Shown here in pieces: positions 1-11,669 of a stretch of 11,669 nucleotides of DNA. The notes beneath the pieces are model-generated. The model was not told where the DNA came from, ran no database searches, and saw nothing but the letters and a program-made list of their open reading frames with translations. Within the stretch, counting starts at the first letter, position 1; every line of letters starts with the position of its first letter. The translations under genes were made by a program, and so were the position numbers. The stretch comes from an uncultured Archangium sp. GTDB taxonomy: Bacteria > Myxococcota > Myxococcia > Myxococcales > Myxococcaceae. The stretch spans positions 1 through 11,669 of the forward strand of contig CAMLFP010000159.1 in assembly GCA_946479335.1 (NCBI GenBank). The letters are read 5' to 3'.

Positions 1-51
1 CCGACGAAGCAGCGCGGCGTTCTGGCGACGGGAGAGGTTGTGAGATGCGCT

Positions 52-453
52 CTAGTTCACGCGGGCGCGCTGCTTCGCGGCGTCGGTCACCGGCGTGAAG
101 CAGTTGAGGAGATTCCCGTCGGGGTCGCGCACCAGCAGCGAGCGATTGCCCCAGGGCATGGTGGTCGGTGGCTGCAACACGTCGGTGAGGTGCGGCCGCG
201 CGCGCTCGAAGGTCGCGTCGACGTCGTTATCGAGCCACTCGATGATGAGGGAGCGGTTGCTCCCGGGTTGAACCACGCCCGCGCCGAGCGCCTTCAGCGT
301 GCGCTCATGCGCGAGCGCGAGGGTGCCGCGCGCGGTGACGAACTCGGCGAAGTCGTCGGTGTGCCAGGTCGGCGTGAGCCCGGTGAGGTGCGCGTAGAAC
401 TCGGCGAGCCGGTGGACGTCGGTGGTGACGATGCGGATGGAAGCGAAGTGCAT
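52..453 (-). CDS. VOC family (glyoxalase/bleomycin-resistance fold) protein
   Basis: A 133-residue single-module VOC protein, the usual length of the family. The reading frame is open upstream to 534, but the ATG at 453 is preferred: GGAG precedes it at good spacing, and homologous VOC proteins begin just before the first beta strand (here HFASIRIVTTDV). Visible family marks are FYAHLTG near residue 20, NRSLIIEWLDNDVDATFERAR in the middle, and PWGNRSLLVRDPDGNLLNCFTP near the end. The last strand has N-C where metal-dependent glyoxalases carry a Glu ligand, so classical glyoxalase I chemistry is unlikely. It is divergent from a WYL regulator, an arrangement common for small VOC proteins with YafY-like regulators, so that regulator may control it (inference). 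Substrate unknown. Confidence 0.9.
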   Translation of the reverse strand: MHFASIRIVTTDVHRLAEFYAHLTGLTPTWHTDDFAEFVTARGTLALAHERTLKALGAGVVQPGSNRSLIIEWLDNDVDATFERARPHLTDVLQPPTTMPWGNRSLLVRDPDGNLLNCFTPVTDAAKQRARVN

Positions 454-512
454 GGGAACTCCGTGAGGTCGCCGCGTAATTGCGGCGGGCAGATGCACCC
501 TCTCCCAGAGCT

Positions 513-530
513 GCTGACATCGTGCTGACA
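513..530. promoter_or_regulatory. 11-bp-period direct repeat, candidate operator of the WYL regulator
   Basis: GCTGACA occurs at 513-519 and again at 524-530, so the copies start 11 bases apart, about one helical turn. The pair lies in the 102-base divergent region between the VOC and WYL genes, immediately upstream of the proposed -10 of the regulator. Both half-sites would be on the same DNA face. That this is the regulator's binding site is inference; the repeat is directly visible. Confidence 0.35.
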
Positions 531-541
531 GCAACGTGGGC

Positions 542-547
542 TAGGTT
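542..547 (+). promoter_or_regulatory. candidate -10 element for the WYL regulator gene
   Basis: TAGGTT fits TANNNT and ends 8 bases before the ATG at 556. There is no Shine-Dalgarno sequence, so the transcript may be leaderless or nearly so. No good -35 is visible at 16-18 bases upstream, which keeps the confidence low. Confidence 0.3.
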
Positions 548-555
548 GCGCGGCC

Positions 556-1242
556 ATGCGTCGCACCGACAGGCTCTTCGCCATCATCCAGCGGCTGCGA
601 CGCAGCCGGCAGCCGGTCACCGGGCGCGCGCTCGCCGGCGAGCTCGAGGTGTCGCTGCGCACGCTCTACCGAGACGTGGCGGAGCTCATCACGCAGCGCG
701 TACCGATTCGCGGGGAGGCGGGCACCGGCTACGTGCTCGACGCGGGCTACGACCTCCCGCCGTTGATGTTCACCGCCGACGAGCTGGAGGCCGCGATGCT
801 CGGCGCCGCGTGGGTCGCGCAGCGGGGTGACGCCACGCTGGTGCGCGCCGCGAAGAGCCTCACCGACAAGCTGCGCGACGTGGTGCCGCCGGCGCTGCGG
901 CCGGTGTTGCTCGACGCGGTGACGAAGCCCGCGCGCCCGCGCAGTCGCATCGCTGACTCCGTCGACCTGGCCGCCGTGCGCCACGCGACGCGCGAGGGCC
1001 GCAAGCTGGAGCTCTCGTATGTCGACGTCGCCGGGCGCGTCACCACGCGCGTGGTGTGGCCGGTGGTGCTGGCGTACACCGAAGACGTGCGGCTGCTGGC
1101 GGCGCACTGCGAGCTGCGCGGCGACTTCCGGCACTTTCGCGCCGACCGCATCAAGCGCGTGCGCGTGTTGGAGCAGCGCGTGCCCGAGTCACTGGCCTCG
1201 CTGCGTGCGCGGTGGCGTGCCGCGCACCCCGGGCGGGAGTAG
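556..1242 (+). CDS. HTH-WYL domain transcriptional regulator (YafY-like)
   Basis: A 228-residue DNA-binding regulator. An N-terminal helix-turn-helix occupies about residues 4-57, with the recognition region SLRTLYRDVAEL at 33-44 followed by the family wing (GEAGTGYVLDAGYDLPPL, 53-70). A WYL domain spans about 136-203, ending in RGDFRHFRADRI (188-199), the signature of this fold; the WYL tripeptide itself is replaced by VRL at 178-180. WYL domains bind ligands, in some cases nucleic acids or nucleotides; the effector here is unknown. At 228 residues it lacks the C-terminal extension of longer WYL proteins such as PafB/C. The start is the first ATG, with no visible Shine-Dalgarno. Divergent from the VOC gene, its likely target and possibly part of an autoregulated pair (inference). 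Confidence 0.9.
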   Translation: MRRTDRLFAIIQRLRRSRQPVTGRALAGELEVSLRTLYRDVAELITQRVPIRGEAGTGYVLDAGYDLPPLMFTADELEAAMLGAAWVAQRGDATLVRAAKSLTDKLRDVVPPALRPVLLDAVTKPARPRSRIADSVDLAAVRHATREGRKLELSYVDVAGRVTTRVVWPVVLAYTEDVRLLAAHCELRGDFRHFRADRIKRVRVLEQRVPESLASLRARWRAAHPGRE

Positions 1243-1269
1243 CGGCGCCTCCGTCGTCACTGCACGCGC

Positions 1270-1563
1270 TCATCGCCTGCGGCGGCGGCGCAGCGCCACC
1301 ACCGCCGGCAGCAGCCACAGAACCGGTGCCGAGGAGCACCCGATTTCCTTCACCGGCGCGGGCTTGCAGCTGCCGCTGACGCACTCGGTGGCGCCGAGGC
1401 AGTCACGGTCGCTGCGGCAGGCGCCGTTCGGGTCGTTCTCCTCGCTGCCTTGATCCGCGCCGCCCTGACCGACGGAGGCATCGGGCAACCCGGCGTCGGG
1501 CAGATCCTGCGCGAGTGAAACTGAGGCACCGGTCAGAACGAGGAGGAGAAGAATGCGTGCCAT
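1270..1563 (-). CDS. small secreted Cys-rich protein with MYXO-CTERM-like sorting tail
   Basis: Only 97 residues, yet with a complete surface-sorting architecture. A signal peptide covers residues 1-18 (ARILLLLVLTGASVSLA, likely cut before QD). An acidic Asp/Gly/Ala-rich linker follows (19-47). A four-Cys segment has C49, C55, C61 and C66 (C-x5-C-x5-C-x4-C). The C-terminus has GCSS at 75-78, a short hydrophobic segment (80-91) and six arginines. The GCSS-helix-Arg pattern matches the MYXO-CTERM signal that myxobacteria use for processing and anchoring at the cell surface. The ATG at 1563 follows AAAGGAAAG, a good ribosome site. It is divergent from the receiver-DUF4388 gene, 53 bases away, and convergent with the WYL gene. 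Function unknown; the Cys pattern resembles the N-terminus of the lipoprotein at 5883-7010. Confidence 0.85.
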   Translation of the reverse strand: MARILLLLVLTGASVSLAQDLPDAGLPDASVGQGGADQGSEENDPNGACRSDRDCLGATECVSGSCKPAPVKEIGCSSAPVLWLLPAVVALRRRRRR

Positions 1564-1595
1564 GAGAGCTTTCCTTTGAGAGCGCCCGCGGGGCG

Positions 1596-1605
1596 AGAGT
1601 AACCT
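1596..1605. promoter_or_regulatory. overlapping divergent -10-like hexamers
   Basis: On the plus strand TAACCT (1600-1605) lies 11 bases before the ATG at 1617. On the minus strand TACTCT (plus-strand 1596-1601) lies upstream of the ATG at 1563. The two hexamers share two bases, so if both are real, polymerase could not occupy both at once. No clear -35 was assigned to either. Confidence 0.25.
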
Positions 1606-1616
1606 GCCGCCCCAAG

Positions 1617-2936
1617 ATGTCGCCCGCGATTCTCGTCGTCGATGACAACAAGGAGCTCGTGGCTCTGCTGACCTCTCTGTTCGAGGAAGCGGGCTACACC
1701 GTCATCGGGGCCAACAAGGGCAAGGTCGCGGTGGAGCAGGGCAAGACCGCCGCCATCGGGGTCGCCATCATCGACGTGCTGCTGCCCGACATGATGGGCT
1801 ACCACGTGGCCGAGGGGCTGCGCGCGAGCAGGCCGGAGCTGCCGCTGCTGTTCATGAGCGGCGTCTTCAAGGGCACCAAGCACTCCACCGAGGCCACCAC
1901 GCGCTTCCCCGGCGCGCGCTTCTTCGAGAAGCCCTTCGACGCCAAGCAGCTGCTCGAGGCGGTGAAGCACATCGTGCCGCCGCCGGCGCGCCCTGCGCCC
2001 ACCTCGCCGCCCGCCGAGGAGTCGTGCGACGTCGAGCTCGACATCGACGTGGAGGAGGGCGACTCCGACGAGCCGATGGAGCTGACCGGGAAGATCCGCG
2101 TCACCGGCGGCGGGAACATCACCGCTGAATTGCAGGGCGCCACGCTCACCGCGCAGCGGCACGTCGCGGGGCCGGTGTCGGGCACGCGGCCTCCGCCGTC
2201 GATGGCCAGCGGCATCGTCGCGCCGTCGCGCACCGCGCGGCAGGGCGAGCTGCGCGACAACCTGCCCGGGCTGATCAGCGCCTTCTACCTCTCGAAGGAG
2301 ACCGGCGAGCTCTACGTGCAGAAGGGCAAGGTGAAGAAGGTCGTCTACTTCGAGAGCGGCCAGCCGGTGTTCGCGCTCTCCAACCTCGCCGCTGACCGCT
2401 TCGGCCAGTTCCTGGTGCGCGTGGGGAAGATCAAGCCCGACCAGCTGCAAGACGCGGCGGTGGTCGCGGCGCAGAGCAAGCGGCGCACCGGCGACGTGCT
2501 GGTGGAGCGCGGCCTCCTCAAGGAGACCGAGCGCCTCTATTACGTAGGCCAGCAGGTGAAGGCCATCATCTACAGCTTGTTCGGCTGGGAAGAGGGCCAG
2601 TTCACCGTCACCTTCCGCGAGAAGGCGCGCGCGGAGAGCATCAAGCTGGACCTCTTCCCCGGCAACCTCACGATTCGCGGCATCAAGAAGCTCTACAAGC
2701 CCGAGCGCCTGAACCGCATCATCAAGCCCGAAGAGCGCCTGCTGCCGAGCCAACAGCCCGCGTACCAGCTCCATGAGCTCGAGCTCGAGAAGTGGGAAGC
2801 CCAGCTGCTGCCCCGCGTCGACGGCACCCGCACCAACGCCGAGCTGATTGCCCTGGCCGGCCGGCCCGAGCACCAGGTGAAGGCCTTCCTCGCGGCGATG
2901 ATGGGCGTGCAGATCCTCGAGACGCGCGAGGCGTAA
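1617..2936 (+). CDS. response regulator receiver with C-terminal DUF4388 (PATAN) domain
   Basis: A 439-residue cytoplasmic signalling protein. The receiver domain (about 3-118) has the acidic pair D9/D10, phospho-acceptor D53 (IIDVLLPDMMG), S81 (LFMSG) and K105 (FEKPFD), so it looks phosphorylatable. An unstructured Pro-rich and acidic linker (about 121-160) leads to a basic/Pro segment. A DUF4388 (PATAN) region begins near 208 with GELRDNLPGLISAFYLSKETGELYV and continues through SGQPVFALSNLAADRFGQFLVRVGKI. The last ~55 residues contain DGTRTNAELIAL, typical of the C-terminus of DUF4388 proteins. Such proteins are frequent in myxobacteria and are thought to mediate protein-protein contacts; no DNA-binding domain is seen. 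The ATG has no strong ribosome site and may be leaderless. No partner kinase is adjacent. Confidence 0.9.
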   Translation: MSPAILVVDDNKELVALLTSLFEEAGYTVIGANKGKVAVEQGKTAAIGVAIIDVLLPDMMGYHVAEGLRASRPELPLLFMSGVFKGTKHSTEATTRFPGARFFEKPFDAKQLLEAVKHIVPPPARPAPTSPPAEESCDVELDIDVEEGDSDEPMELTGKIRVTGGGNITAELQGATLTAQRHVAGPVSGTRPPPSMASGIVAPSRTARQGELRDNLPGLISAFYLSKETGELYVQKGKVKKVVYFESGQPVFALSNLAADRFGQFLVRVGKIKPDQLQDAAVVAAQSKRRTGDVLVERGLLKETERLYYVGQQVKAIIYSLFGWEEGQFTVTFREKARAESIKLDLFPGNLTIRGIKKLYKPERLNRIIKPEERLLPSQQPAYQLHELELEKWEAQLLPRVDGTRTNAELIALAGRPEHQVKAFLAAMMGVQILETREA

Positions 2937-2958
2937 CCGCGCTGCCCGCGTGAAATGA

Positions 2959-2995
2959 CTCGCCCTCCACCGGCGCGTGACCGGAGGAGGGCGAG
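2959..2995. terminator. strong bidirectional hairpin between convergent genes
   Basis: CTCGCCCTCC (2959-2968) pairs perfectly with GGAGGGCGAG (2986-2995). After one A-A mismatch, CCGG (2970-2973) pairs with CCGG (2981-2984), closing a 7-base loop. It lies between the stops of the receiver-DUF4388 gene and the ASH-repeat lipoprotein gene. No U-tract follows on either strand, as is common in GC-rich genomes, so it may stop polymerase or protect 3' ends for both genes. Confidence 0.7.
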
Positions 2996-3018
2996 GGCCC
3001 GACGAAGCGGCGCGTGCG

Positions 3019-5760
3019 TCAGTTGCCTGACACGGTCAACGCCGCCGGGAGCGGAGCGCAGCGCCCCGCGGTGCTGGTGATGGACACCGTGGCCGACTGC
3101 GGGCCGCTGAGCAGCGGCTTGGAGTAGGTGACCGACTCCGTGACGCTGTTGCCCGCGTTCGCCGTGCCCGAGGTCGGGGTGACCGCGAAGCTGCCCGGGT
3201 TGTTGCCGCCCACCGTCAGCGTGTACGGCGCCGTGACGTTGCCCGAGTTGTTGACGGTGAAGTTCTTGGTCTGCCCGTTGGTGAAGGCCAGCGAGGTGGG
3301 GTTGAGCGTCAGCACCGCGCCCTGCGCCGTCTCGTGCAGCGACACGGTGTGCGTCTCGTTGATGGGGCCGCCGGTGCCGGTGATGGACAGCGTGTCGGCG
3401 AAGCCGTCAGCGGCGGTCGACGACGTGGCCGGCACCATCTTCGGGGTGACGGTGATGGTGGCGGTCGCGCCCGCGGCCACCGTGGTGGGGCCCGACACGG
3501 TGTACGGCGAGCTGGCGCCCTGCTCGAGCGCGAGGGCCAGCGTCAGCGTCTGCGCCGAGTTGTTGGTGACGCCCACCGTCAGCGCGCTCGCCGTCGAGCC
3601 GCACGGCACCAGGCCGCCGGCGCCGAACGTGAGGCTGGAGGTCGAGAGCGCCATCACGTTGCCCGAGGTGCCCGCGCCCGCGAGGCTCATGGTGGTGAAC
3701 GGGAGTGGCTGGCACAGCACCGTGCCGCTGGCCGCGGCGATGGTGGCCGTGTCGCTGTAGCCCATGGCGCCCATCGGGGTCATCGTGCCGGTCTGGCCGC
3801 TCGAGGTGTTGGGGTTCACCTGCGCGTTCGACGGCAGCCCGAAGATGGTGGGCTGGCCGGGCGTGAAGACCAGGCCGCCGGCCGCGTTGCCGTCGTTGGT
3901 GACGGTGAACTGCGAGCTCGCCGTCGTGCCCACCGCCACCGAGCCGAAGTTGATGCTGTTGGTGCTGATGGCGAAGATGCTGCCGCGCGCGGTGAGGCGG
4001 AGCGGGATGTCGCGCGGTGAATCTCCCACCACGTCGGTGCTGACGGTGAGGGTGTCGCCGTAGAGGTCGGGCGTCACCGCCGACGTCTGGGGAATCGCGT
4101 TGGGCGCGACGGTGATGACCACCGTGCCGCCGTCAGGGTCGACCACGCCGGTGGGCGGCGCGAGCGTCACCGCGAACCACGAGCCCGCGTCGTGCCCGAG
4201 CGTCGGGGTGATGGTGTACGCCTGATTGCCGTCGTTGCGGAAGGTGATGGTGCGCGCCGCCGCGGTGGTGCCGCAGTTCACCGCGCCGAAGTCGAGCGCC
4301 ACCGGCGAGAAGCTGACCGACCCGTTGGTGCCCTGGCCGCTCATCGGCAGCGGGCCGGGGAGCGCGCCGCACAGGGGCTCCGTGGGGTCGAGCGTCAGCG
4401 CGAGCAGCCCGGTCTGGGGCAGCACCGAGGTGCCGGGCGCGAAGGTGCCGGTGAGCTCGGTGCTGCTGGCGCCCGTCGCGGCCAGCGGGCTCGGCGGGTC
4501 GATGGTGAACGCCGCGTTGTCGGAGGTCAGCGTCACCATCGGGCTGGTGTTGCCCGCGTTGACGAGCCCGATGGGCGCGCTCGCCGTGTTGTTGACGGGC
4601 ACCTGGCCGAAGTCGACCGAGTTCTGCGCCCAGCTCAACACCGCGCCGTTCGCCGTCTGGTGCAGGGTGATGGGGTGCGCCGCGTCGTTCGCGATGTCGG
4701 TGACGATGGTGAGGATGTCGCCGAACGCGTCATCGGCGGTCGACGCCTCGGGGGGGATCGCGCTGGTCGAGATGTTGATGGTGACCGTGCCGGAGTTGGC
4801 GGGCAGCGTGCCGCTGCTCGGCGAGAAGGTGAACGGCGAGCTCAGCCCCTTGCTCAGCGTCGCGTTCCACGCGAAGGCCTGGTTGCCGGTGTTGGTCAGC
4901 ACCAGCGTCTGCATGCCCGCCTGCGTGCCGCAGTTGACGCGCCCGTTGGTGCCGAAGAACACGTCGGTGGTCGAGAGCATCAGGCTGCCGTTGGTGCCTT
5001 GCCCCGACATCGCGATGGAGGAGACCGAGGTGCCGCACACCGCCTCCGCCACGGTGAGCGCGGCGGTGCTGGTCGACGGCGTGATGGTCGACGGCGTGAA
5101 GCCCGCCTGCAGCCCGGGGAGCGTCGCTCCCGCCGCCACCGTCACCGCGTCGGGCGCGCCGGTCCACGCGAGGGAGAACTGCGCGTCAGCGGGCTGGGTG
5201 AACGAGACGGTGGCCGCCACGTTGCCGGTGTTGGTGAGCGTCAAGGGCAGCGCCGGCGCGACGGTGTTCACCGGGAGCACCCCGAACGTCGCCACCGACG
5301 GCGTCAGCGTGAGGGTGACGCCCGCCGACTTCGCGGTCAGCGCCACGGTGTGGGCGGCGACGGCCTCGTTGGTGGTGAACGTCAGCGTGCCTGTGTAGTC
5401 GGTGCCGGCCGCGGCGCTGGCCGAGACGGTCGCGGTGACGGTGAAGGTGGCGCTGGCGCCCGCGGAGACGGTGGCGCTCGCGGGCGACACCGAGAACACC
5501 GTGGAGTTGGCGATCGCCGCCGCGACCGTGAGCTCGCCGGTGCCGGTGTTGCTGACGACCACGTCCTTCGTCGTCGCCGCGCCGCAGAACGCCTGCGCGA
5601 AGTCGAGGCTCGCCGGCGAGATGGACGACGCGGGCGTCAACGCCACGCCGGAGTCACTCCCTCCGTCGGCGGTGTGGCCCGCGTCAGGGAGGACGATGTT
5701 GGGGGTACAGGCGCTGAGCATGATGAGCACCAGCGAGGCGCAAAGCGGTCGGACGTTCAC
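3019..5760 (-). CDS. large surface lipoprotein with eight ASH/choice-of-anchor-D Ig-like modules
   Basis: A 913-residue lipoprotein. The signal peptide ends in lipobox L15-S16-A17-C18; residue +2 is Thr, which by the Lol rule predicts outer-membrane rather than inner-membrane retention. A short Asp/Gly/Ser linker precedes eight Ig-like modules of the ASH (ASPM-SPD2-Hydin)/choice-of-anchor-D type, each opened by a strand like LDFGAVNCGTT followed by LTNTGN or FRNDGN. The modules alternate in two kinds, giving four super-repeats of about 212-222 residues. The mature part has exactly eight Cys after the lipid Cys, two per super-repeat. GTG start at 5760, with GGAG nine bases upstream; the frame gives a complete signal peptide. 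Probably an extended surface stalk or adhesin-like scaffold; the binding partner is unknown. It lies 122 bases downstream of the caspase operon and may have its own promoter. Confidence 0.88.
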   Translation of the reverse strand: MNVRPLCASLVLIMLSACTPNIVLPDAGHTADGGSDSGVALTPASSISPASLDFAQAFCGAATTKDVVVSNTGTGELTVAAAIANSTVFSVSPASATVSAGASATFTVTATVSASAAAGTDYTGTLTFTTNEAVAAHTVALTAKSAGVTLTLTPSVATFGVLPVNTVAPALPLTLTNTGNVAATVSFTQPADAQFSLAWTGAPDAVTVAAGATLPGLQAGFTPSTITPSTSTAALTVAEAVCGTSVSSIAMSGQGTNGSLMLSTTDVFFGTNGRVNCGTQAGMQTLVLTNTGNQAFAWNATLSKGLSSPFTFSPSSGTLPANSGTVTINISTSAIPPEASTADDAFGDILTIVTDIANDAAHPITLHQTANGAVLSWAQNSVDFGQVPVNNTASAPIGLVNAGNTSPMVTLTSDNAAFTIDPPSPLAATGASSTELTGTFAPGTSVLPQTGLLALTLDPTEPLCGALPGPLPMSGQGTNGSVSFSPVALDFGAVNCGTTAAARTITFRNDGNQAYTITPTLGHDAGSWFAVTLAPPTGVVDPDGGTVVITVAPNAIPQTSAVTPDLYGDTLTVSTDVVGDSPRDIPLRLTARGSIFAISTNSINFGSVAVGTTASSQFTVTNDGNAAGGLVFTPGQPTIFGLPSNAQVNPNTSSGQTGTMTPMGAMGYSDTATIAAASGTVLCQPLPFTTMSLAGAGTSGNVMALSTSSLTFGAGGLVPCGSTASALTVGVTNNSAQTLTLALALEQGASSPYTVSGPTTVAAGATATITVTPKMVPATSSTAADGFADTLSITGTGGPINETHTVSLHETAQGAVLTLNPTSLAFTNGQTKNFTVNNSGNVTAPYTLTVGGNNPGSFAVTPTSGTANAGNSVTESVTYSKPLLSGPQSATVSITSTAGRCAPLPAALTVSGN
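3022..5622 (-). repeat. four in-frame super-repeats (~640-670 bp each) inside the ASH lipoprotein
   Basis: Units at about 4984-5622, 4318-4983, 3658-4317 and 3022-3657. Each encodes a Cys-containing module (NCGT or similar), a Cys-free module, and a closing strand with a second Cys. Units 1 and 2 end in the identical peptide MSGQGTNGS (residues 251-259 and 473-481), unit 3 in LAGAGTSGN. Units 2-4 also share a segment with aspartates before LTI/LTV (AFGDILTIVTD, LYGDTLTVSTD, GFADTLSITG). The units have diverged in sequence, so the expansion is old rather than recent. Boundaries are approximate. Confidence 0.75.
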
Positions 5761-5798
5761 GTGGGGGGTCTCCAGTCGGGTGGTTTTTCAACTCGGCT

Positions 5799-5817
5799 GC
5801 AGGGTGTTGCGCCCTGC
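5799..5817. promoter_or_regulatory. hairpin in the gap upstream of the ASH lipoprotein gene
   Basis: GCAGGG (5799-5804) pairs with CCCTGC (5812-5817) across a 7-base loop. It lies in the 122-base gap between the end of the caspase operon and the GTG at 5760. It could be a weak terminator for the operon or leader structure of the next gene; no U-tract follows. Confidence 0.35.
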
Positions 5818-5852
5818 CCACCACGTGGATCGCCCCAGCGCACTTTTCGCGA

Positions 5853-5864
5853 TGACGCGCGTCA
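5853..5864. promoter_or_regulatory. perfect 12-bp palindrome
   Basis: TGACGCGCGTCA is its own reverse complement. It lies 19 bases beyond the stop of the He_PIG lipoprotein gene, in the region that should hold the promoter of the downstream ASH lipoprotein gene. A dimeric regulator site is possible; with no loop it would make a poor terminator hairpin. CCACGTGG, an 8-bp palindrome, lies nearby at 5821-5828. Confidence 0.3.
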
Positions 5865-5882
5865 GGCCCGCGCGGTGACCGC

Positions 5883-7010
5883 TCAGTACACGGTGAGGCT
5901 CAGCGCCTGGTTCTGCGACTGCAGCACGGAGTCGACGCAGCGCACCGTGAACGGGAAGGTGCCCGTCGCGGTGGGCGTGCCGCTCAGCGACCAGTCGCTC
6001 CCGGCATTCGTCAGCGCCAACCCTGGCGGCAGGGAGGCGGTGCCCGACTGCACCGACCAGGTGTACGGCGGCGTTCCCCCGGACACCTTCAACGGCAGCG
6101 CGTACGCCGTACCCACGCGGCCATCGGGCGCGCCCGCGGTCGCGATGTCGAGCGTCAGTACCAAGGTCTTGATCTGCACGCTGAGTTGCCGGCTGGCGCG
6201 CTGCGGCGGCGAGGCCGAGTCGCTCACCGTCACGCCGAAGGTCACCGCCGCGCCGCTGGTGCTCGGCGTGCCCGACAGCACCCCCGCGTCGGAGAGCGAG
6301 AGCCCCGTCGGGGGCGCGCCTCCGTCGAGGCTCCAGGTGTAGGGCGGCGTGCCGCCGGTGGCGCTCAGCACTTCGCTGTACGCCTGCCCCTGCCGGCCGT
6401 CGGTCAACACGTTGCTCGCCACGCGCAGCAGCGGGCGCACCTCGAGAGAGAAGGGCGTGGTGACGGTCGCGCGCGGCACCGCGTCGTCTTCGACCGTGAT
6501 GGAGAAGGGGAAGGTGCCCGGCGTCGGCGCGGCGGCCGTCGACAAGGTGCCGGTGACGCTCAAGGTGAACCCCGGCACGCCGCCGTCCATCGAGAAGTGG
6601 TGCTGCCCCACGCCGCCGGTGGGCATGAAGTCGACGGCGTACGCGGCCGTCTCGATGGCCGCAGCCAACGCCTGCGCCGGCAGCGCGAGCGGGGGCCCCG
6701 CGTCGGTGCCTGCATCTTCAACACCCGCGTCGTCGTCGCCCGCGTCGGGCCCGGCGTCTTCCACGCCTGCGTCGTGGTCGCCCGCGTCGGCGCCGGCGTC
6801 TTCAACACCCGCATCGTCGGTGCCCGCGTCGTCGGGCGGAGGGCAGTCTTCTCCACACTCGGGCACGCAGCGGCGCGCCTCCGCGAGACAGAGGAACCCG
6901 GTGGGGCACTCACCGCTCGCGGTGCACGGCTCGTAGCGCGAGAGGTCGGGCGCGAAGACGCACGCGCTCAAGCTGGCCAGCGCCACGGCGATGAAGGCGC
7001 GCGCCGTCAC
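5883..7010 (-). CDS. lipoprotein with Cys-rich head, Asp-Ala-Gly linker and He_PIG (putative Ig) repeats
   Basis: A 375-residue lipoprotein, third gene of the caspase operon. The GTG at 7010 overlaps the preceding stop (GTGA) and gives a complete signal peptide with lipobox L14-S15-A16-C17; Val at +2 predicts outer-membrane location. A Cys-rich head follows, with C29, C35, C41, C48, C52 and C56. An acidic linker (about 59-107) is built of 14-residue repeats with the core DAGVEDAG. Three Ig-like segments follow: a degenerate one (about 115-190) and two clear He_PIG copies marked by GGTPPYTWS at 219-227 and 311-319, with LSGTPS/LSGTPT at their ends. The open frame extends far upstream, but that part is an out-of-frame shadow of the two preceding genes. 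Likely a surface binding protein; the ligand is unknown. Translational coupling to the membrane-protein gene is likely. Confidence 0.87.
   Translation of the reverse strand: MTARAFIAVALASLSACVFAPDLSRYEPCTASGECPTGFLCLAEARRCVPECGEDCPPPDDAGTDDAGVEDAGADAGDHDAGVEDAGPDAGDDDAGVEDAGTDAGPPLALPAQALAAAIETAAYAVDFMPTGGVGQHHFSMDGGVPGFTLSVTGTLSTAAAPTPGTFPFSITVEDDAVPRATVTTPFSLEVRPLLRVASNVLTDGRQGQAYSEVLSATGGTPPYTWSLDGGAPPTGLSLSDAGVLSGTPSTSGAAVTFGVTVSDSASPPQRASRQLSVQIKTLVLTLDIATAGAPDGRVGTAYALPLKVSGGTPPYTWSVQSGTASLPPGLALTNAGSDWSLSGTPTATGTFPFTVRCVDSVLQSQNQALSLTVY
6690..6815 (-). repeat. three 42-bp tandem repeats encoding Asp-Ala-Gly linker
   Basis: Residues 66-79, 80-93 and 94-107 of the lipoprotein are three 14-residue units starting DAGVEDAG and differing only near the end (ADAGDH, PDAGDD, TDAGPP). 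The DNA repeats are close, with period 42, and should be prone to slippage without breaking the frame. The strongly acidic linker probably acts as an extended spacer, possibly binding cations (inference). Confidence 0.75.
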
Positions 7011-7705
7011 GGGAGGTCCACCACCCAGAGCACGACGGCGCCCGTCAGCAGCGCGCCCGCGACGCCGAAGAGCACGTTGGCAGCGGTCGCTTCGCTCTTG
7101 CCCGTCTTGAGCTGCGCGTCGAGGCAGTCGCGGTAGCCGGTGCCACCGCCGCCGCAGCCGGTGGTGCCGTTCGAGAGCTGCTGCTGGTGGTGCCGCGCGT
7201 CGAGGCCCAGCGCGACGCCCACGCCGGCGCTGGTCACCGCGGCCGCGCCGAGCGCCAGCGAGGGCCAGCGGGTCTTCTTCGCCGGCGCCCGCGTGTCCCA
7301 CTGGTAGAGGACGCCCAGCGCCGTCGCGAGCTCCACTTCCGCGGCGGTGGCGCGGGCGGTGCGCGTCGCGGTGGCGCGGAGGAGGTCGACGTTGTGGTGC
7401 GCGCCGGCGCCGACGACCACGCCGCTGACCACCTCGTCGGCGTCGAGCGCGGAGAGCTGCGCGGTGACGCACGCGCGATCGAGGCACGGCGGCAGCGCAC
7501 GCCGGGGGAACTTCGCCAGCTTCTCGATGGTGGCCGCGCGTGGCTCGACGCACAGCCCCGGCCGGGAGGTCAACGCGCCGCGCACCTGCTCCTCGAGCGC
7601 GCGCGCCACGGCGGGCGAGGTGGCGAGCGGCTCGAAGGGCGTGACCACCACGCGCACGCACGGCGCGGCCGCCAACACGAAGGTGAGGAGCAGGGGCGAC
7701 GTCAC
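7007..7705 (-). CDS. small exported or membrane protein with TolB/FlgO-like N-terminal domain and two hydrophobic helices
   Basis: A 232-residue protein, middle gene of the caspase operon. Residues 1-15 are hydrophobic (TSPLLLTFVLAAA) and resemble a signal peptide, though lacking the usual basic residues; P15-C16 is not a lipobox. Residues about 17-125 have the alternating strand/helix pattern of TolB-N/FlgO-like domains: RVVVTPFEPL, then PAVARALEEQVRGAL, then the paired-Cys segment C74-x4-C79, then DADEVVSGVVVGAG. Two hydrophobic helices follow at about 149-167 and 210-229, separated by a His/Gln-rich and Cys-containing loop (RHHQQQLSNGTTGC). The GTG at 7705 is 7 bases after the caspase stop, and no other start is available in this frame. 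No Shine-Dalgarno is seen, suggesting reinitiation. Function unknown; perhaps a membrane partner of the caspase or lipoprotein. Confidence 0.8.
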   Translation of the reverse strand: MTSPLLLTFVLAAAPCVRVVVTPFEPLATSPAVARALEEQVRGALTSRPGLCVEPRAATIEKLAKFPRRALPPCLDRACVTAQLSALDADEVVSGVVVGAGAHHNVDLLRATATRTARATAAEVELATALGVLYQWDTRAPAKKTRWPSLALGAAAVTSAGVGVALGLDARHHQQQLSNGTTGCGGGGTGYRDCLDAQLKTGKSEATAANVLFGVAGALLTGAVVLWVVDLP

Positions 7706-7712
7706 GGGGAGG

Positions 7713-8972
7713 TCAGGGCGAGAGGTCCGGCTCCGGGGCGGGGCGCACCGGCACCTCGCCGCTGCTGGCGACGAAGCCCCCGTAGAACGTCGGCCCATAC
7801 GGCGACCCGAAGAGGTGCTCGCGGAAGCTCTGGTCGAGCGAACCACCGCGCGCCGCGGTGCTCGAGGGCGCCCACGCCAGCTGCGCGACGTCGACCAGCT
7901 TGCCGGCGCGCGGGCGCTCGAGCCGCGCCTCGCTGGCGGCGGTGCGCACGAAATACGTCTCACCGGGCGGCAGCGCCAACAGCAACGCGCGCGCGGGCTC
8001 CTTGTTGAAGTCGGCGAGGCGCACGCCGTGGCTGTCTTCGACCCAGTGGTGCCCCTCGACGCCCGCGGGCAACAGGAGGAACGCGTTGCTCGATGGCGCG
8101 GTGAGCTCCGCCAGCGGCGCCGAGCGATCTCTCGCGGGCGGGCGCGCGAACATGTCCACCTTGCCGCGCGGGTCGTCGACCTGCTGGTTGGCGGCGGCGA
8201 CGAACGCGCGCAGCTCGGAGTACTCAATCTTCCCGTCGGCGTTGACGTCGGCCGCGCCGAGCAGCGCGGAGATGACCTCATGCGAGAAGACGCCCGCGTT
8301 GATGGCGGCCCACTCGTGGCTCTCCTGCTGGCTGCTGGTGGAGAGCACCACGCCCACGTCGGGGAAGCGGTCCAGCGAGCGCTCCTCGAGGAACTGCGCG
8401 ACCGCCACCCGCTGGCTCGCGGCGACCGGGAGCCCGCCGCGCTGGTTGACGAAGAAGTACGAGTCGCACGCGTCGATGATGAGGTGCGTGGTGCTGGCCT
8501 GCAGCGGCGTGAGCACCTCCTCGAAGAGCTGCGTGCGCGTGAACTGCTCGCCCAGCAGCGCGATGGAGCCCTCACCCGCGTCGCCGCGCTGCCCGTGCCC
8601 GGTGAAGACGAAGAAGAACACCGGCTGTTTCCCCTCGGCGCGCGCCTGCTTCATCTGCGCGTTGAGCTGGCCCAGCGCCTCGCGCAGCTCCTTGCGGCTC
8701 GGCGGCCGGGTCTGCGCCGCCAACCCGGGGAAGCGGCGCTGCGTGTCGTCGTCGAGCACGCTGAGCAACCGCACCTGCTCCGCCATCGGCTTGAGCACCG
8801 TGAAGTACCGCGCGCCGTCGTCGTCGGCGAACTTGAGGTTCGCCTGCTTCGGGTCGTTGCTCTGGTTGTTGGCGATGATCAGCGCGTAGACCGGTGAGCT
8901 GGCGCCCAGCGAGGCCGCCACCACGAGAGAAAGAGCGAGCACGTGGCGAAGAGTAGCCGGGCGACGAGCCAC
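7713..8972 (-). CDS. exported caspase-like (peptidase C14) protein with EF-hand loop
   Basis: A 419-residue caspase-fold protease with an intact catalytic pair: H126 in FTGHGQRGD and C169 in IIDACDSYF (the DxCxS pattern of the p20 subunit). The fold opens with YALIIANN directly after a signal-like segment (about 1-24: basic start ARRPATLRH, then LALSLVVAASLGA), so the enzyme is probably periplasmic or surface-exposed. An EF-hand loop fits the consensus exactly at 242-253 (DVNADGKIEYSE). The C-terminal ~150 residues look beta-rich and have no recognised family. Caspase-fold enzymes cleave proteins after specific acidic or basic residues; specificity here is unknown. Start uncertain: TTG at 8999 would lie upstream of the likely promoter, GTG at 8972 gives the best signal peptide, and GTG at 8942 would be leaderless after TACTCT (8950-8955). 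First gene of the operon and divergent from the sigma factor. Confidence 0.88.
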   Translation of the reverse strand: MARRPATLRHVLALSLVVAASLGASSPVYALIIANNQSNDPKQANLKFADDDGARYFTVLKPMAEQVRLLSVLDDDTQRRFPGLAAQTRPPSRKELREALGQLNAQMKQARAEGKQPVFFFVFTGHGQRGDAGEGSIALLGEQFTRTQLFEEVLTPLQASTTHLIIDACDSYFFVNQRGGLPVAASQRVAVAQFLEERSLDRFPDVGVVLSTSSQQESHEWAAINAGVFSHEVISALLGAADVNADGKIEYSELRAFVAAANQQVDDPRGKVDMFARPPARDRSAPLAELTAPSSNAFLLLPAGVEGHHWVEDSHGVRLADFNKEPARALLLALPPGETYFVRTAASEARLERPRAGKLVDVAQLAWAPSSTAARGGSLDQSFREHLFGSPYGPTFYGGFVASSGEVPVRPAPEPDLSP

Positions 8973-8988
8973 CGTCGCGGCCCGGGGC

Positions 8989-9018
8989 AATACAGACAAA
9001 AGCCAGCGCTGGTGTCGG
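8989..9018 (-). promoter_or_regulatory. candidate promoter of the caspase operon, with palindrome in the spacer
   Basis: On the minus strand CCGACA (plus 9013-9018) is followed after 18 bases by TGTATT (plus 8989-8994); each matches the sigma-70 consensus at four of six positions. The spacer contains the perfect 10-bp palindrome CCAGCGCTGG (9003-9012), a good place for a repressor or activator. The predicted start of transcription, near 8982, favours the GTG at 8972 as translation start. No GGAAC-type ECF promoter motif is visible on either strand of this divergent region. Confidence 0.35.
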
Positions 9019-9045
9019 TCGGGGCTGGGCGGTAGTCAGCCGCGC

Positions 9046-9675
9046 GTGGGGTTCGACCGGGCGCTTCTGCAGCAGTTTCGGGCCGGCGACGCCGCGGCCC
9101 TGGCAGAGGTGTACCGGAAGCACGCCGACGCGCTCACACGCATGTTGCGGGCCGCGGCGTTCCGCGGGCAGTCGTTCGCGGTCTTGAGGTCATCGATGGA
9201 AATGGAGAACGCCATCGTCGAGGTCTTCACCCGCGCCTTCGAGCCGCGCGCGCGGCAGGTGTACGACGGGCAGCGGCCGTACGAGTTCTTCTTGATGGGC
9301 ATCGCGCGCAACTACCTGCTGGAGCTGCTGCGCAACCGCGAGCGCCCCGTGGGTCTCGAGCTCTCGGCGGAGGTCGACGCGGCGCTCTCGCTGGACCGCG
9401 CCGACGTGCACGAGGAGCTCGAAGATCGCGAGGTCGGTGAGCTGATGGCGCGCTTCCGCGCGGAGCTGGGCGAAGAGGAGGGCCGGCTGTTCGACCTCCG
9501 CTACGTGGAGGGGCTGACCCAGAACGTCGCGGCCGAGCGTCTCGGGCAGACCCGCATCCAGCTCCGGCGGCGCGAGCACAAGCTGCGCCTGCGCGTGCTG
9601 GAGTACCTCAAGGCGCACGGTTACCTCGGCGCGCTCACGCCGACCGGTTGGTCGTTCATCACGGAGCCCACATGA
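9046..9675 (+). CDS. ECF-type RNA polymerase sigma factor with enlarged region 2
   Basis: A 209-residue sigma-70-family protein with regions 2 and 4 only. Region 2 begins with LLQQFRAGDAAALAEVYRKHADAL (7-30), and after an insertion of about 20 residues resumes with AIVEVFTRAFEPRARQVYDGQRPYEFFLMGIARNYLLELLR (56-96), containing the core-binding and -10-recognition helices. Region 4 (about 130-190) carries LRYVEGLTQNVAAERLG and a basic recognition helix (TRIQLRRREHKLR). Region 3 is absent. It directs RNA polymerase to a specific regulon, target unknown. The GTG at 9046 is preceded by TAGTCA at 9033-9038 and no Shine-Dalgarno. Its last codon overlaps the ATG of the anti-sigma gene. Divergent from the caspase operon, a natural candidate target (inference). 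Confidence 0.9.
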   Translation: MGFDRALLQQFRAGDAAALAEVYRKHADALTRMLRAAAFRGQSFAVLRSSMEMENAIVEVFTRAFEPRARQVYDGQRPYEFFLMGIARNYLLELLRNRERPVGLELSAEVDAALSLDRADVHEELEDREVGELMARFRAELGEEEGRLFDLRYVEGLTQNVAAERLGQTRIQLRRREHKLRLRVLEYLKAHGYLGALTPTGWSFITEPT

Positions 9676-10367
9676 CCTGCGATGACGCCCGCGCCGCGAT
9701 GGACGCCGAGTTCGCCGGAGACGCGCCCGCCGAGCGCGCCGCGCCGCTGCGAGAACACCTGCGCGAATGCGCGAGCTGCCGGGAGCGCTACGACCGCCTC
9801 GCGCGCGTCGAGGCGCGGCTCTCGGGCGGCGGGCTCTCGGAGCAGAAGCGCGACGTGCTGCAGGCGTTGATCCTCGCCAGGAGCGCGCCGGTGCCGTCGG
9901 TCGTCGCGCCTCCGCCGCTGGTGCCGCGCCGCTGGGGCCTGCTGCTCGCCGCGGCGGCGGTGCTGGTGGTGTCGACCGTCGCGGTCTTCAGCTCGCGCGC
10001 GACCCGGGAGGACCCCTTCACTCCGCGCGGCGCCACCGGGAAAAGCTGGGGCGTGCGCGCCTTCTGCGTGAGCGAGGGGCACGTCACGGGCGAAGCGCTG
10101 GCGGGCGGCACCCTGGTGTGCGGCGAGGGCGCGCTGGTGCAGTTCACGTACACCGCGCCGCAGCCCGCGACGTTGACCATCTCGCTCGACGGCACCGCGC
10201 AGACCTTCGTCTCCGGGGTGCGGGTGAGCGACGGCACCGACGTCGCGCTCCCGACGAGCACGCCGGTCGGCGCGTGGCTGTCGGGCCCGACGCGCGTGAC
10301 CGCGCGGTTCACCGATGACGCCGGCGGCACGCTCGCCGAGCGCACGCTCTCCCTCACTCCACGCTGA
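9672..10367 (+). CDS. zinc-finger (zf-HC2/ZAS) transmembrane anti-sigma factor
   Basis: A 231-residue inner-membrane protein. The N-terminal cytoplasmic part has C3 and the H29-x3-C33-x2-C36 motif (REHLRECASC) of zinc-dependent anti-sigma domains, which bind and hold ECF sigma factors. A Pro-rich stretch leads to one transmembrane helix (about 88-107, WGLLLAAAAVLVVSTVAVF). An extracytoplasmic domain (about 108-231) ends in beta-rich sequence and has two Cys (C132, C150) that could form a disulfide. The ATG at 9672 overlaps the sigma-factor stop by ATGA, implying coupled, near-stoichiometric synthesis; the open frame extends eight codons upstream, but this start also gives the normal position of C3. 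It probably transmits an envelope signal by release or proteolysis. The extracytoplasmic domain has no recognised family. Confidence 0.88.
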   Translation: MTCDDARAAMDAEFAGDAPAERAAPLREHLRECASCRERYDRLARVEARLSGGGLSEQKRDVLQALILARSAPVPSVVAPPPLVPRRWGLLLAAAAVLVVSTVAVFSSRATREDPFTPRGATGKSWGVRAFCVSEGHVTGEALAGGTLVCGEGALVQFTYTAPQPATLTISLDGTAQTFVSGVRVSDGTDVALPTSTPVGAWLSGPTRVTARFTDDAGGTLAERTLSLTPR

Positions 10368-10382
10368 GGCGGGGGCTCAGCG
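10362..10382. terminator. bidirectional hairpin containing both convergent stop codons
   Basis: CGCTGAG (10362-10368) pairs perfectly with CTCAGCG (10376-10382) across a 7-base loop. The TGA of the anti-sigma gene (10365-10367) sits in one arm and the TGA of the kinase gene (10377-10379, minus strand) in the other. Only nine bases separate the genes, so any shared terminator must use coding bases. No U-tract on either strand. Confidence 0.5.
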
Positions 10383-11669
10383 CGCGCGCTGCCCGTGCGG
10401 CGGCGTCATCGTACCCTCGCGCGTGTCGGTGGTCGGCGGCAGGCGCACGGTGAAGGTGGTGCCCGGGCCGTCGTCGTTGTTGCGCGCGACGATGTCGCCG
10501 AGGTGCGAGTCGACGATGCGCTTGACCACCGCGAGGCCGAGGCCGGTGCCGGTGGCCTTGGTGGTGAAGAACGGCTGGAACATCTTCGCGCTGGCCGTCT
10601 CGCTGAGGCCCACGCCCTCGTCGCGCACGCGCACCACGAGCCACGGCCGCCCGCCCTCGGGAGGTGTCTCGGTCGTGGCGTTCACCAGCACCCGCCCGCC
10701 GCGCGGCATCGACTGCGCCGCGTTGACGATGAGGTTCATCAGCGCCTGCCGCAGCAGGTGCGCGTCGACGGGGAAGGGCGGGAGCTCCCGGGGGAACTCG
10801 GTGAGCACCCGCACGTTGCCGTTGAGCACCGAGAGCGACGCCGCGTCGACGGCGTTGGCGATGATGGGCTCCACCGCCGCCGGCTTCTTCACCAGCTCGT
10901 AGGGGCGCACGAAGTCCATCAGGTCGCCGACGATGCGGTTCAACCGGTCGGCCTCCTCGCCCACCATGTTGAGCATCATCTCCACGTCGCCGTCGTGCCG
11001 GCTGATGCGCTTGATGGTGGTGAGGCAGTTGAAGATGACGCCCAGCGGGTTGCGCACCTCGTGGGCCATCACCGCGGCCAGCTCGCCGACGGCCGCGAGG
11101 CGCTCGTGCCGCACCAGCTCCTGCTGCGTGCGCGCCAACTGGTCGTACGACGCCTTGAGGTCGTCGTAGAGCTGGCTCATCTGCTCGTAGAGCCGCGCGC
11201 GGTCGAGCACGGTGGTGAGCTGCACGCCGAGGATCTCCGCGGTGCGCATCTCCGCTTCGGTGTACGGCGTGTCGTGGTTGCGCGCGAGCGTCAGCAGGCC
11301 CACGGGCGTGCCGTCGATGGTCAACGGCACCACCGCCAGCTGCACGAAGCCCTGTTGGCGCAGCAGCTCGGGGGCGTGCTCCACCTCGGAGACCGACATC
11401 GCCGTCGGCCCGCGCATGCGCTGCAGCCGCGGCGGGAGCCGGAAGCGTCGCCAGCGCTCCACCACCACGCCCTCGGTGCCGTAGGCGTCGCCGGTCTGCG
11501 TGTACTCGCCGGCGGAGTCGCGGCGGTGCAGCACCGCGGCGTTGGTCTGCGTGGTGCTGCACAGCGTGGCCAACGCGCGCGCGCACAGTTCGCGCGAGTC
11601 GAGGCTGGTGCCGGCCGCGGCGAGCTCGTGCACCAGCTCCAGCTCGATGTTGCGGCGGTCGAGCTGCGC
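10377..11669 (-). CDS. GAF-domain sensor histidine kinase, 5' end outside the window
   Basis: 430 residues are visible; the frame stays open to the right edge (AQLDRRNIELEL precedes the first possible GTG at 11633), so the N-terminus is missing. In order: a GAF sensor domain (about 13-160), a coiled linker (ARLYEQMSQLYDDLKASYDQL), a HisKA dimerisation domain with phospho-acceptor H203 (AVMAHEVRNP), and an HATPase domain with N-box (NLIVNAA, N312/N316), G1 (DEGVG, from D350), F-box (FQPFFTTK) and G2 (GTGLGL, 374-379). All catalytic motifs are intact. No transmembrane segment is visible, so in the visible part it looks like a cytoplasmic kinase sensing a small ligand or redox state through GAF. 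No response regulator is adjacent in the window; the receiver-DUF4388 protein is about 7.5 kb away. Confidence 0.92.
   Translation of the reverse strand, partial: AQLDRRNIELELVHELAAAGTSLDSRELCARALATLCSTTQTNAAVLHRRDSAGEYTQTGDAYGTEGVVVERWRRFRLPPRLQRMRGPTAMSVSEVEHAPELLRQQGFVQLAVVPLTIDGTPVGLLTLARNHDTPYTEAEMRTAEILGVQLTTVLDRARLYEQMSQLYDDLKASYDQLARTQQELVRHERLAAVGELAAVMAHEVRNPLGVIFNCLTTIKRISRHDGDVEMMLNMVGEEADRLNRIVGDLMDFVRPYELVKKPAAVEPIIANAVDAASLSVLNGNVRVLTEFPRELPPFPVDAHLLRQALMNLIVNAAQSMPRGGRVLVNATTETPPEGGRPWLVVRVRDEGVGLSETASAKMFQPFFTTKATGTGLGLAVVKRIVDSHLGDIVARNNDDGPGTTFTVRLPPTTDTREGTMTPPHGQRAR

Follow-up and report, generated by a model that had tools for sequence, protein, structure and literature searches.

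What does an exported caspase do when it is encoded beside an extracytoplasmic function (ECF) sigma factor and its membrane-bound anti-sigma factor? The question is raised by a stretch of 11,669 nucleotides from an uncultured Archangium sp. (GenBank assembly GCA_946479335.1, contig CAMLFP010000159.1, positions 1 to 11,669; hereafter the window, i.e. this whole stretch). Here, an ECF sigma factor gene (P0004, 9046..9675, + strand) and a gene for a zinc-finger (ZAS) transmembrane anti-sigma (P0005, 9672..10367, +) are divergent from three genes that encode an exported orthocaspase/metacaspase-type protease of 409 aa with a beta-rich C-terminal part (P0001, 7713..8942, −), a membrane protein termed MID (P0002, 7007..7705, −) and a predicted lipoprotein termed LIPO (P0003, 5883..7010, −). 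What is new, as judged from the aligned sequences, is a juxtamembrane motif shared by the caspase-paired anti-sigmas, together with a like dipeptide in a loop of the caspase. This points to the exported orthocaspase as the site-1 protease of its partner anti-sigma, i.e. to a caspase-operated ECF sigma system, an interpretation that we favour tentatively, with the case for it close to evenly balanced.

Co-occurrence of the genes

The layout described by an earlier reading of the letters and open reading frames of the window (the sequence-only reading) was confirmed: the sigma and anti-sigma genes share four bases (ATGA), a 7-base gap separates the caspase gene from MID, and MID and LIPO overlap by 4 bases. 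That reading had also proposed a comparison of gene neighbourhoods; the association proved phylum-wide, which refutes the notion that sigma/anti-sigma pair and caspase operon occur together in this genome only. In a first scan with one genome per species (loci fetched are numbered L, genomes G), 19 caspase relatives were found in records titled Archangium, Hyalangium, Corallococcus or Myxococcaceae; sigma and anti-sigma were present in all 19, and MID and LIPO in 18 (L019 ends within the caspase). Grouping left 42 distinct close-ortholog loci. The complete set of five is present in 40, and the remaining two run into the end of a contig or slice; such conservation excludes a chance layout, and the five genes belong together in this group. 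All five lie on one strand in L018, in the order sigma, anti-sigma, caspase, MID, LIPO. Inserted sequence leaves the cassette intact in L007 and L008 (3 to 5 kb) and in L193 and L195; the insert of L007 contains a kinase-like and a response-regulator-like match.

The caspase family (E <= 1e-30) was found in 106 of 195 genomes searched from the phylum of G004 (Hyalangium, L004), with about nine candidates scored per genome, and a close ortholog (E < 1e-150) in 46 of the 195 by count of listed rows. Forty further loci were hand-chosen from the ranked list (L050-L089; L050 is itself a close ortholog). The profiles of sigma, anti-sigma and caspase all matched in 31 of the 39 loci L051-L089, on one strand in each of the 31 and in the order sigma, anti-sigma, caspase in 30 (exception, L057). 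With a wider ECF model, 37 of the 40 slices L050-L089 contained a sigma factor, which in 33 lay less than 1.5 kb from the caspase gene; of ten arbitrary slices of about that size, one contained a sigma factor. A second, more divergent caspase subfamily (K-subfamily) lies beside related anti-sigmas; its profile matches in 155 of 189 genomes of the phylum (E <= 1e-20), and 19 of 20 freshly fetched loci contain an ECF sigma factor.

Thirty Peptidase_C14 loci were fetched from 43 matches in six genomes, and 19 had an ECF match in a short slice. The other 11 comprise five family members (L157, L162, L163, L168 and L174; in L162, the locus of L084, and L163, the locus of L065, the sigma factor is present further off) and six other caspases, for which no ECF sigma was found (0/6), also not in 12.7-kb slices (0/6); their selection had followed short slices in which a single weak caspase hit was all that lay near, so the count is partly circular and serves as a check only. 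Four more Peptidase_C14 loci of weak similarity each had a sigma factor (4/4).

For the reverse search, a profile was built from 18 caspase-linked anti-sigmas, restricted to the part that follows the membrane helix; it yielded 26 loci in six genomes, 22 of which were not rows of the profile and four of which were, with several others being close orthologs of rows; a caspase lies within 1.5 kb in 24, and in the remaining two the distance is about 1.6 kb (L122, which is the locus of L065) and about 6 kb (L128, which is that of L007). As controls, the best 30 of 108 zf-HC2 matches in four genomes were taken; 28 of these loci hold an ECF sigma, and none matches either caspase profile.

ECF sigma, transmembrane anti-sigma and caspase hence travel together across Myxococcota, mostly on one strand. 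The suggestion that the three operon products form one module holds for the ortholog group of the window; the wider family keeps constant only sigma, anti-sigma and caspase.

Juxtamembrane motif of the anti-sigmas

The sigma factor passes the cut-off for the sigma70-ECF superfamily (TIGR02937, 47.0 versus 42.9 bits; NCBIfam); the Pfam matches to region 2 and region 4 are under their cut-offs, and the alignment profile (A4) matches the solved ECF sigma SigL (E 9e-6). Its partner is matched by zf-HC2 over the cut-off (Pfam; E 2e-5), and zf-HC2 also matches 68 of the 69 members aligned (E up to 1). The AlphaFold2 model of the anti-sigma (predicted local distance difference test score, pLDDT, 81.8; predicted template modelling score 0.50) comprises a ZAS part (residues 3-71), a helix (96-109), a disordered linker and a beta-sandwich (127-229); the zinc-finger part and, from residue 127, the beta-sandwich are confident, and confidence is low across the linker and most of the membrane helix. 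The hydrophobic helix and the modelled beta domain at 127-229 indicate a single membrane helix followed by an extracytoplasmic domain, in which the cysteine pair C132/C150 is invariant. No family was adopted for this domain, since all candidates were too weak: beta-sandwich matches to RhoGDI (Foldseek E from 8e-5, template modelling (TM) score by target up to 0.49), a fibronectin-III module (TM 0.66 at E 0.01) and DUF4384 (sub-threshold, in 2 of 69 members).

When caspase-linked anti-sigmas are read side by side, a short motif stands soon past the membrane helix, with the remaining linker variable; the sequences fall to 17% identity past the membrane, yet the motif is common to them. In the window, it is FTPRG (Phe116-Gly120; 10017..10031, +), a candidate cleavage site, with pLDDT <50 over residues 116-121. 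For counting, rows without a readable helix were dropped, and 66 of 104 rows were kept after similar ones were removed; 25 of the 30 controls gave a segment, 22 after the same removal. The pattern [FWLVYI]xx[RK][GS] occurs within 34 residues of the helix in 55 of the 66 nonredundant caspase-linked anti-sigmas (1000 shuffles gave a mean of 9.7 and a maximum of 18); none of 23 controls has it. At first look, with a 45-residue window, a single control fitted the broad pattern (L103, VPERS). The dipeptide [RK][GS] alone is less telling (64/66 versus 38 expected; controls, 8/23 versus 9 expected).

The motif follows the two subfamilies. In the R-group, [FW]xxR[GS] is found in 40 of 55 (shuffled mean 2.2, maximum 9) and RxK[GS] in 0 of 55; in the K-group, RxK[GS] is found in 35 of 42 (shuffled mean 1.0, maximum 6) and [FW]xxR[GS] in one of 42, namely L134, an R-type pair placed there because its caspase has KG. 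Neither subfamily motif occurs in the control anti-sigmas (0/25; 0/22 after removal of similar ones). The basic residue lies 0 to 30, mostly 8 to 16, residues from the helix end (helix finder, with 4 helix residues subtracted). The segments of L159, L164 and L225 contain KG, though they were mislabelled by the automatic site picker.

The caspase and its candidate processing loop

The caspase matches Peptidase_C14 (Pfam; E 9e-8). In an alignment of 139 close relatives (window included, similar sequences kept), the catalytic His116 (codon 8595..8597, −) and the residues D157, A158 and C159 of the DAC motif (catalytic Cys159, codon 8466..8468, −) are invariant (139/139), in agreement with the intact H/C dyad noted earlier; the dyad pattern also holds in 40 of 40 of L050-L089. 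The dyad, the acidic DxC position and a metacaspase-like fold are shared with the orthocaspases/metacaspases (C14B); the window family differs by [RK]G at position +9 from the catalytic Cys, by an EF-hand late in the protease domain and by the steady sigma/anti-sigma pairing. We know of no metacaspase outside this family with the +9 dipeptide.

The EF-hand loop (residues 232-243, DVNADGKIEYSE; 8214..8249, −) has D232, V233 and N234 in 139/139 and D236 in 138/139, and its pattern recurs in 35 of 40 of L050-L089; the Pfam EF-hand match is under the family cut-off (E 3e-4), and calcium-binding proteins of the PDB match weakly to residues 231-255. Ubiquitin hits of the alignment profile A6 among PDB sequences were built from many tiny repeat scores and were set aside. 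The acidic position two before Cys, i.e. the S1 position for a basic P1 residue as far as sequence position goes, is Asp in 139/139 and in 40/40 of L050-L089. By our own alignment, D157 appears to take the position of Asp211 of Trypanosoma brucei MC2, which accommodates basic residues; passages of the same source describe the role of the corresponding Asp in metacaspases (PMC6426788).

The p20/p10 linker is the usual processing site of caspases and metacaspases. In the window caspase, the linker (169-186) has pLDDT <50, and Arg168-Gly169 (8436..8441, −), nine residues past Cys159, sits at its edge as a candidate self-processing site; both motifs, in anti-sigma and caspase, are thus in or at the edge of stretches with pLDDT <50. 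All 139 close relatives have RG at +9, and 138 of them have Val at P4. In L050-L089, the +9 position is taken by [RK]G in 40 of 40 (38 RG, 2 KG). The K-subfamily caspases, which were taken by [RQ]xKG at +9, have R at P3 in 39 of 41, as in RxKG of their anti-sigmas. The 20 fresh K-loci, from other genomes, have KG at +9 in 20 of 20 caspases and RxK[GS] in 19 of 19 readable juxtamembrane partners (L231 has S; L232 is cut). As a small control, L147, L153 and L154, caspases without a sigma factor, have no RG at +9, and L148 has RG at +8.

By eye, the signal peptide of the window caspase is minimal, with about 16 residues from the GTG at 8942 (an in-frame TTG at 8999 is a possible alternative start); that of relatives such as L005-L007 looks classical.

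Proposed mechanism and alternatives

The earlier suggestion that the protease acts on the extracytoplasmic domain of the anti-sigma gained support that is specific though indirect: the juxtamembrane motif is confined to the caspase-linked anti-sigmas among those read, and it resembles the caspase loop. Directly observed are the gene association, the conserved dyad and EF-hand, the topology by sequence, the resembling motifs and the absence of the motif from the other anti-sigmas read. From these we infer a cleavage and its position, its calcium dependence, the later proteolytic steps and an inducing signal, as follows. The sigma factor would be held at the inner membrane by the single-pass zinc-finger anti-sigma. 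From the periplasm, the exported, probably calcium-dependent orthocaspase would reach the disordered linker that follows the helix and cleave the motif on the C-terminal side of its Arg or Lys (here R119-G120), with the same specificity as in the processing of its own inter-domain loop (R168-G169). This site-1 cut would shed the folded periplasmic domain; a general site-2 protease, and then ClpXP, would finish the anti-sigma and free the sigma factor. In the group of the window, MID and LIPO may tether or regulate the protease at the envelope.

As an extension, at least two large subfamilies of exported caspases in Myxococcota may be dedicated site-1 proteases, with each anti-sigma copying the self-processing peptide of its own caspase; we consider this possible, and hold it with less assurance than the mechanism itself. 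If true, one specificity would govern both protease activation and sigma release, and caspases would be switches of envelope signalling in these bacteria, not death enzymes.

Several observations weigh against cleavage by the caspase. The motif could be a docking segment, an inhibitory pseudosubstrate or a domain boundary, and motif and periplasmic domain co-occur in the set, so the domain may be the recognised element. A single deep split accounts for most of the R/K matching, which is broken by an anti-sigma K with a caspase R in L018, L057 and L063 and by the reverse in L084/L134. The dipeptide is at +8 in L131 and L143, L132 has R without G in the caspase, and the anti-sigmas of L003 and L037 have R without a following G or S. 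A third sigma-linked caspase group (L255-L258) has the active site ATCHSG, with Ala, not Asp, two before Cys, and no [RK]G at +9; the two of its four anti-sigmas that are readable have KG past the helix, after EW-x-G-x (L255, EWTGEKG; L257, EWNGVKG), and neither subfamily motif. Furthermore, the signal peptide of the window caspase is short, 1 to 5 kb lie between the sigma pair and the caspase in L007, L008, L193 and L195, and no sigma factor was seen in the slices of L059 (where the contig ends just upstream), L068 and L080.

The best-surviving alternative, which we nevertheless judge unlikely, is that the caspase is an output only: the ECF sigma would drive the caspase operon, and the protease would serve in cell death or have other substrates, either in the envelope or among the proteins of prey. 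ECF sigmas commonly regulate neighbouring genes, and adjacency would then reflect regulation alone; in most loci of the wider family, the caspase gene also lies behind the anti-sigma gene in the same direction. For control of the operon by this sigma factor, one of the two links offered by the sequence-only reading, there is weak support from an element that resembles a promoter and precedes the caspase gene (TTGYC-N15-TGGMTY); the copy in the window is degenerate and weak (8966..8990, −). Of 41 upstream regions of close-ortholog caspases, that of the window among them, 23 contain the element by a relaxed pattern; the regions are related, not independent, sequences. A stricter form is rare, with 17 matches in six genomes, three of them at the caspase itself (reversed pattern, 0), so that no broad sigma regulon emerged. 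Autoregulation from one shared promoter was rejected: by eye, the element was not seen upstream of the sigma gene, where a different sigma-70-like arrangement appears to be kept. A mere output leaves unexplained why the motif is in caspase-linked anti-sigmas but not in controls, and why it is like the caspase loop.

The likeness to the loop would also be accounted for by a pseudosubstrate, in which the RG/KG segment of the anti-sigma fills the active site of the caspase; the anti-sigma would also be an anti-protease, and a signal would free both sigma and protease. The well-folded domain of the anti-sigma could hold such a peptide in place. The variable distance of the basic residue from the helix suits a linear motif that is cleaved better than an inhibitor held in a fixed place; it is not decisive, and we regard a pseudosubstrate as rather improbable. 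Finally, motif and domain might serve assembly with another periplasmic partner, e.g. MID or LIPO, with caspase and anti-sigma linked via that partner only; both are fixed members of the close-ortholog cluster and MID shares a membrane hairpin with wider-family caspases, but this is very improbable, as L051-L089 show no MID match and a weaker LIPO match only in L076 and L088, and many of these loci keep caspase and motif.

Relation to known systems

The association of sigma factors with metacaspases is not new, since it was reported in 2012: passages of that work describe four metacaspase operons with sigma factors in Myxococcus xanthus, covering four of its five metacaspases, and like sigma-70/metacaspase operons in Anaeromyxobacter, Haliangium, Sorangium, Ralstonia and Fibrobacter, and discuss a possible part of metacaspases in programmed cell death (PMC3501461). 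The terms 'anti-sigma', 'zinc finger' and 'zf-HC2' are nowhere mentioned in its main text, and the passages concerned are without a motif or an anti-sigma mechanism (PMC3501461). ECF sigmas also occur beside other caspase conflict systems, according to parts of another study (PMC8195603). In the sections of PMC8999054 concerned, CHAT proteins are mentioned only for ECF54, which is treated as being without an anti-sigma. An earlier link of metacaspases or orthocaspases to anti-sigmas was not found in the literature by title and abstract, though the 2021 ECF classification may hold a remark.

The nearest known mechanism is that of type III-E CRISPR (clustered regularly interspaced short palindromic repeats) systems, in which, following passages of PMC10028731, the caspase-fold protease Csx29 (TPR-CHAT) cuts the anti-sigma Csx30 and so frees CASP-sigma. 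There, too, the genes for an ECF sigma, its inhibitor and a protease of caspase fold lie together, and cutting of Csx30 relieves the inhibition; Csx29, however, is cytoplasmic and RNA-activated with Cas7-11, whereas the window encodes a ZAS-domain anti-sigma that is bound to the membrane and a protease that has a signal peptide. Among the window proteins scanned (nine with Pfam, nine with NCBIfam and five with PADLOC; 11.7 kb), neither Cas7-11 nor TPR-CHAT nor any other CRISPR protein was matched, and the known defence systems of PADLOC gave 0 families for the five proteins at E up to 1. The anti-sigma is also like those controlled by regulated intramembrane proteolysis (RIP; DegS/RseA, PrsW/RsiW): these cross the membrane once, bind the sigma factor with their cytoplasmic part, have a further part in the periplasm and are activated by proteolysis, as parts of PMC8999054 describe.

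Caspases are common in prokaryotes, and substrates are known for only a few of them. In the present case, a candidate substrate, a bond and a readout (the ECF regulon) can be named from sequence alone in about 100 loci read, and probably in many more, by which the question of bacterial caspase targets becomes directly testable. If the proposed mechanism is true, it would be an envelope parallel, outside CRISPR, to the control of a sigma factor by a caspase fold. To our knowledge, the known site-1 proteases of RIP-controlled anti-sigmas are not caspases.

Accessory proteins and flanking genes

MID consists of a signal peptide, a Cys-containing domain and a C-terminal two-helix membrane hairpin. 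Pfam gave no match to it (E up to 1), and the 'TolB-like' domain that had been assigned to it is unsupported by Pfam and by PDB sequences, with no TolB family across its 15 aligned members. LIPO has a lipobox (LSAC17; C17 invariant in 13/13) and three stretches of Ig-like He_PIG repeats (Pfam; E 7e-19). Close-ortholog caspases stop soon past the caspase domain, and many of the wider family carry a C-terminal pair of hydrophobic helices, which the hairpin of MID resembles (hhalign probability 95.7; fused-hairpin profile versus 15 MID tails, E 2e-11 to 0.006; MID profile versus 21 fused tails, best 1e-7). Two-helix membrane hairpins are common in myxobacteria, so the likeness is only suggestive; the membrane anchor of the caspase may be a separate subunit, MID, in the group of the window.

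Other caspases of the family end differently. Those of L070-L073, L075, L078-L080, L082, L085 and L088 continue for about 160-176 residues at the C terminus, and most of these extensions show no strong membrane helices; by eye, the extension of L073 resembles an outer-membrane barrel, and one protease family may have different anchors. The caspases of L255-L258 have a lipobox-like start, followed soon by EKG or DKG in three and by SKG in the fourth.

A second match to the promoter-like element in a caspase-bearing genome (L177; G090:C1:3351850-3351876) starts TTGTCGCGAG and ends GTGGATTG like the caspase's own, and is possibly a further target of the sigma factor. Between the divergent starts of the window, a short palindrome (CCAGCGCTGG, 9003-9012), seen by eye as GCCAGCGCTGGC in L001 and L002 among the intergenic regions compared, is perhaps a regulator site.

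Following LIPO, positions 3019-5760 (−) encode a protein of 913 aa that is lipoprotein-like and carries repeats of choice-of-anchor-D/HYDIN Ig-like domains; it was left outside the cassette because, among the first 19 loci, a match of >60 bits lies beside the cluster in L001 and L002 only. A small MXAN_6627.5-like MYXO-CTERM protein is encoded at 1270-1563 (−), with a score under the family cut-off (NCBIfam). The region is flanked by genes for a response regulator with DUF4388 (1617-2936, +) and a GAF-histidine kinase (10377-11669, −; both by Pfam), which are only scattered among the first 19 loci, the kinase in L006, L007 and L018 and the regulator in L007.

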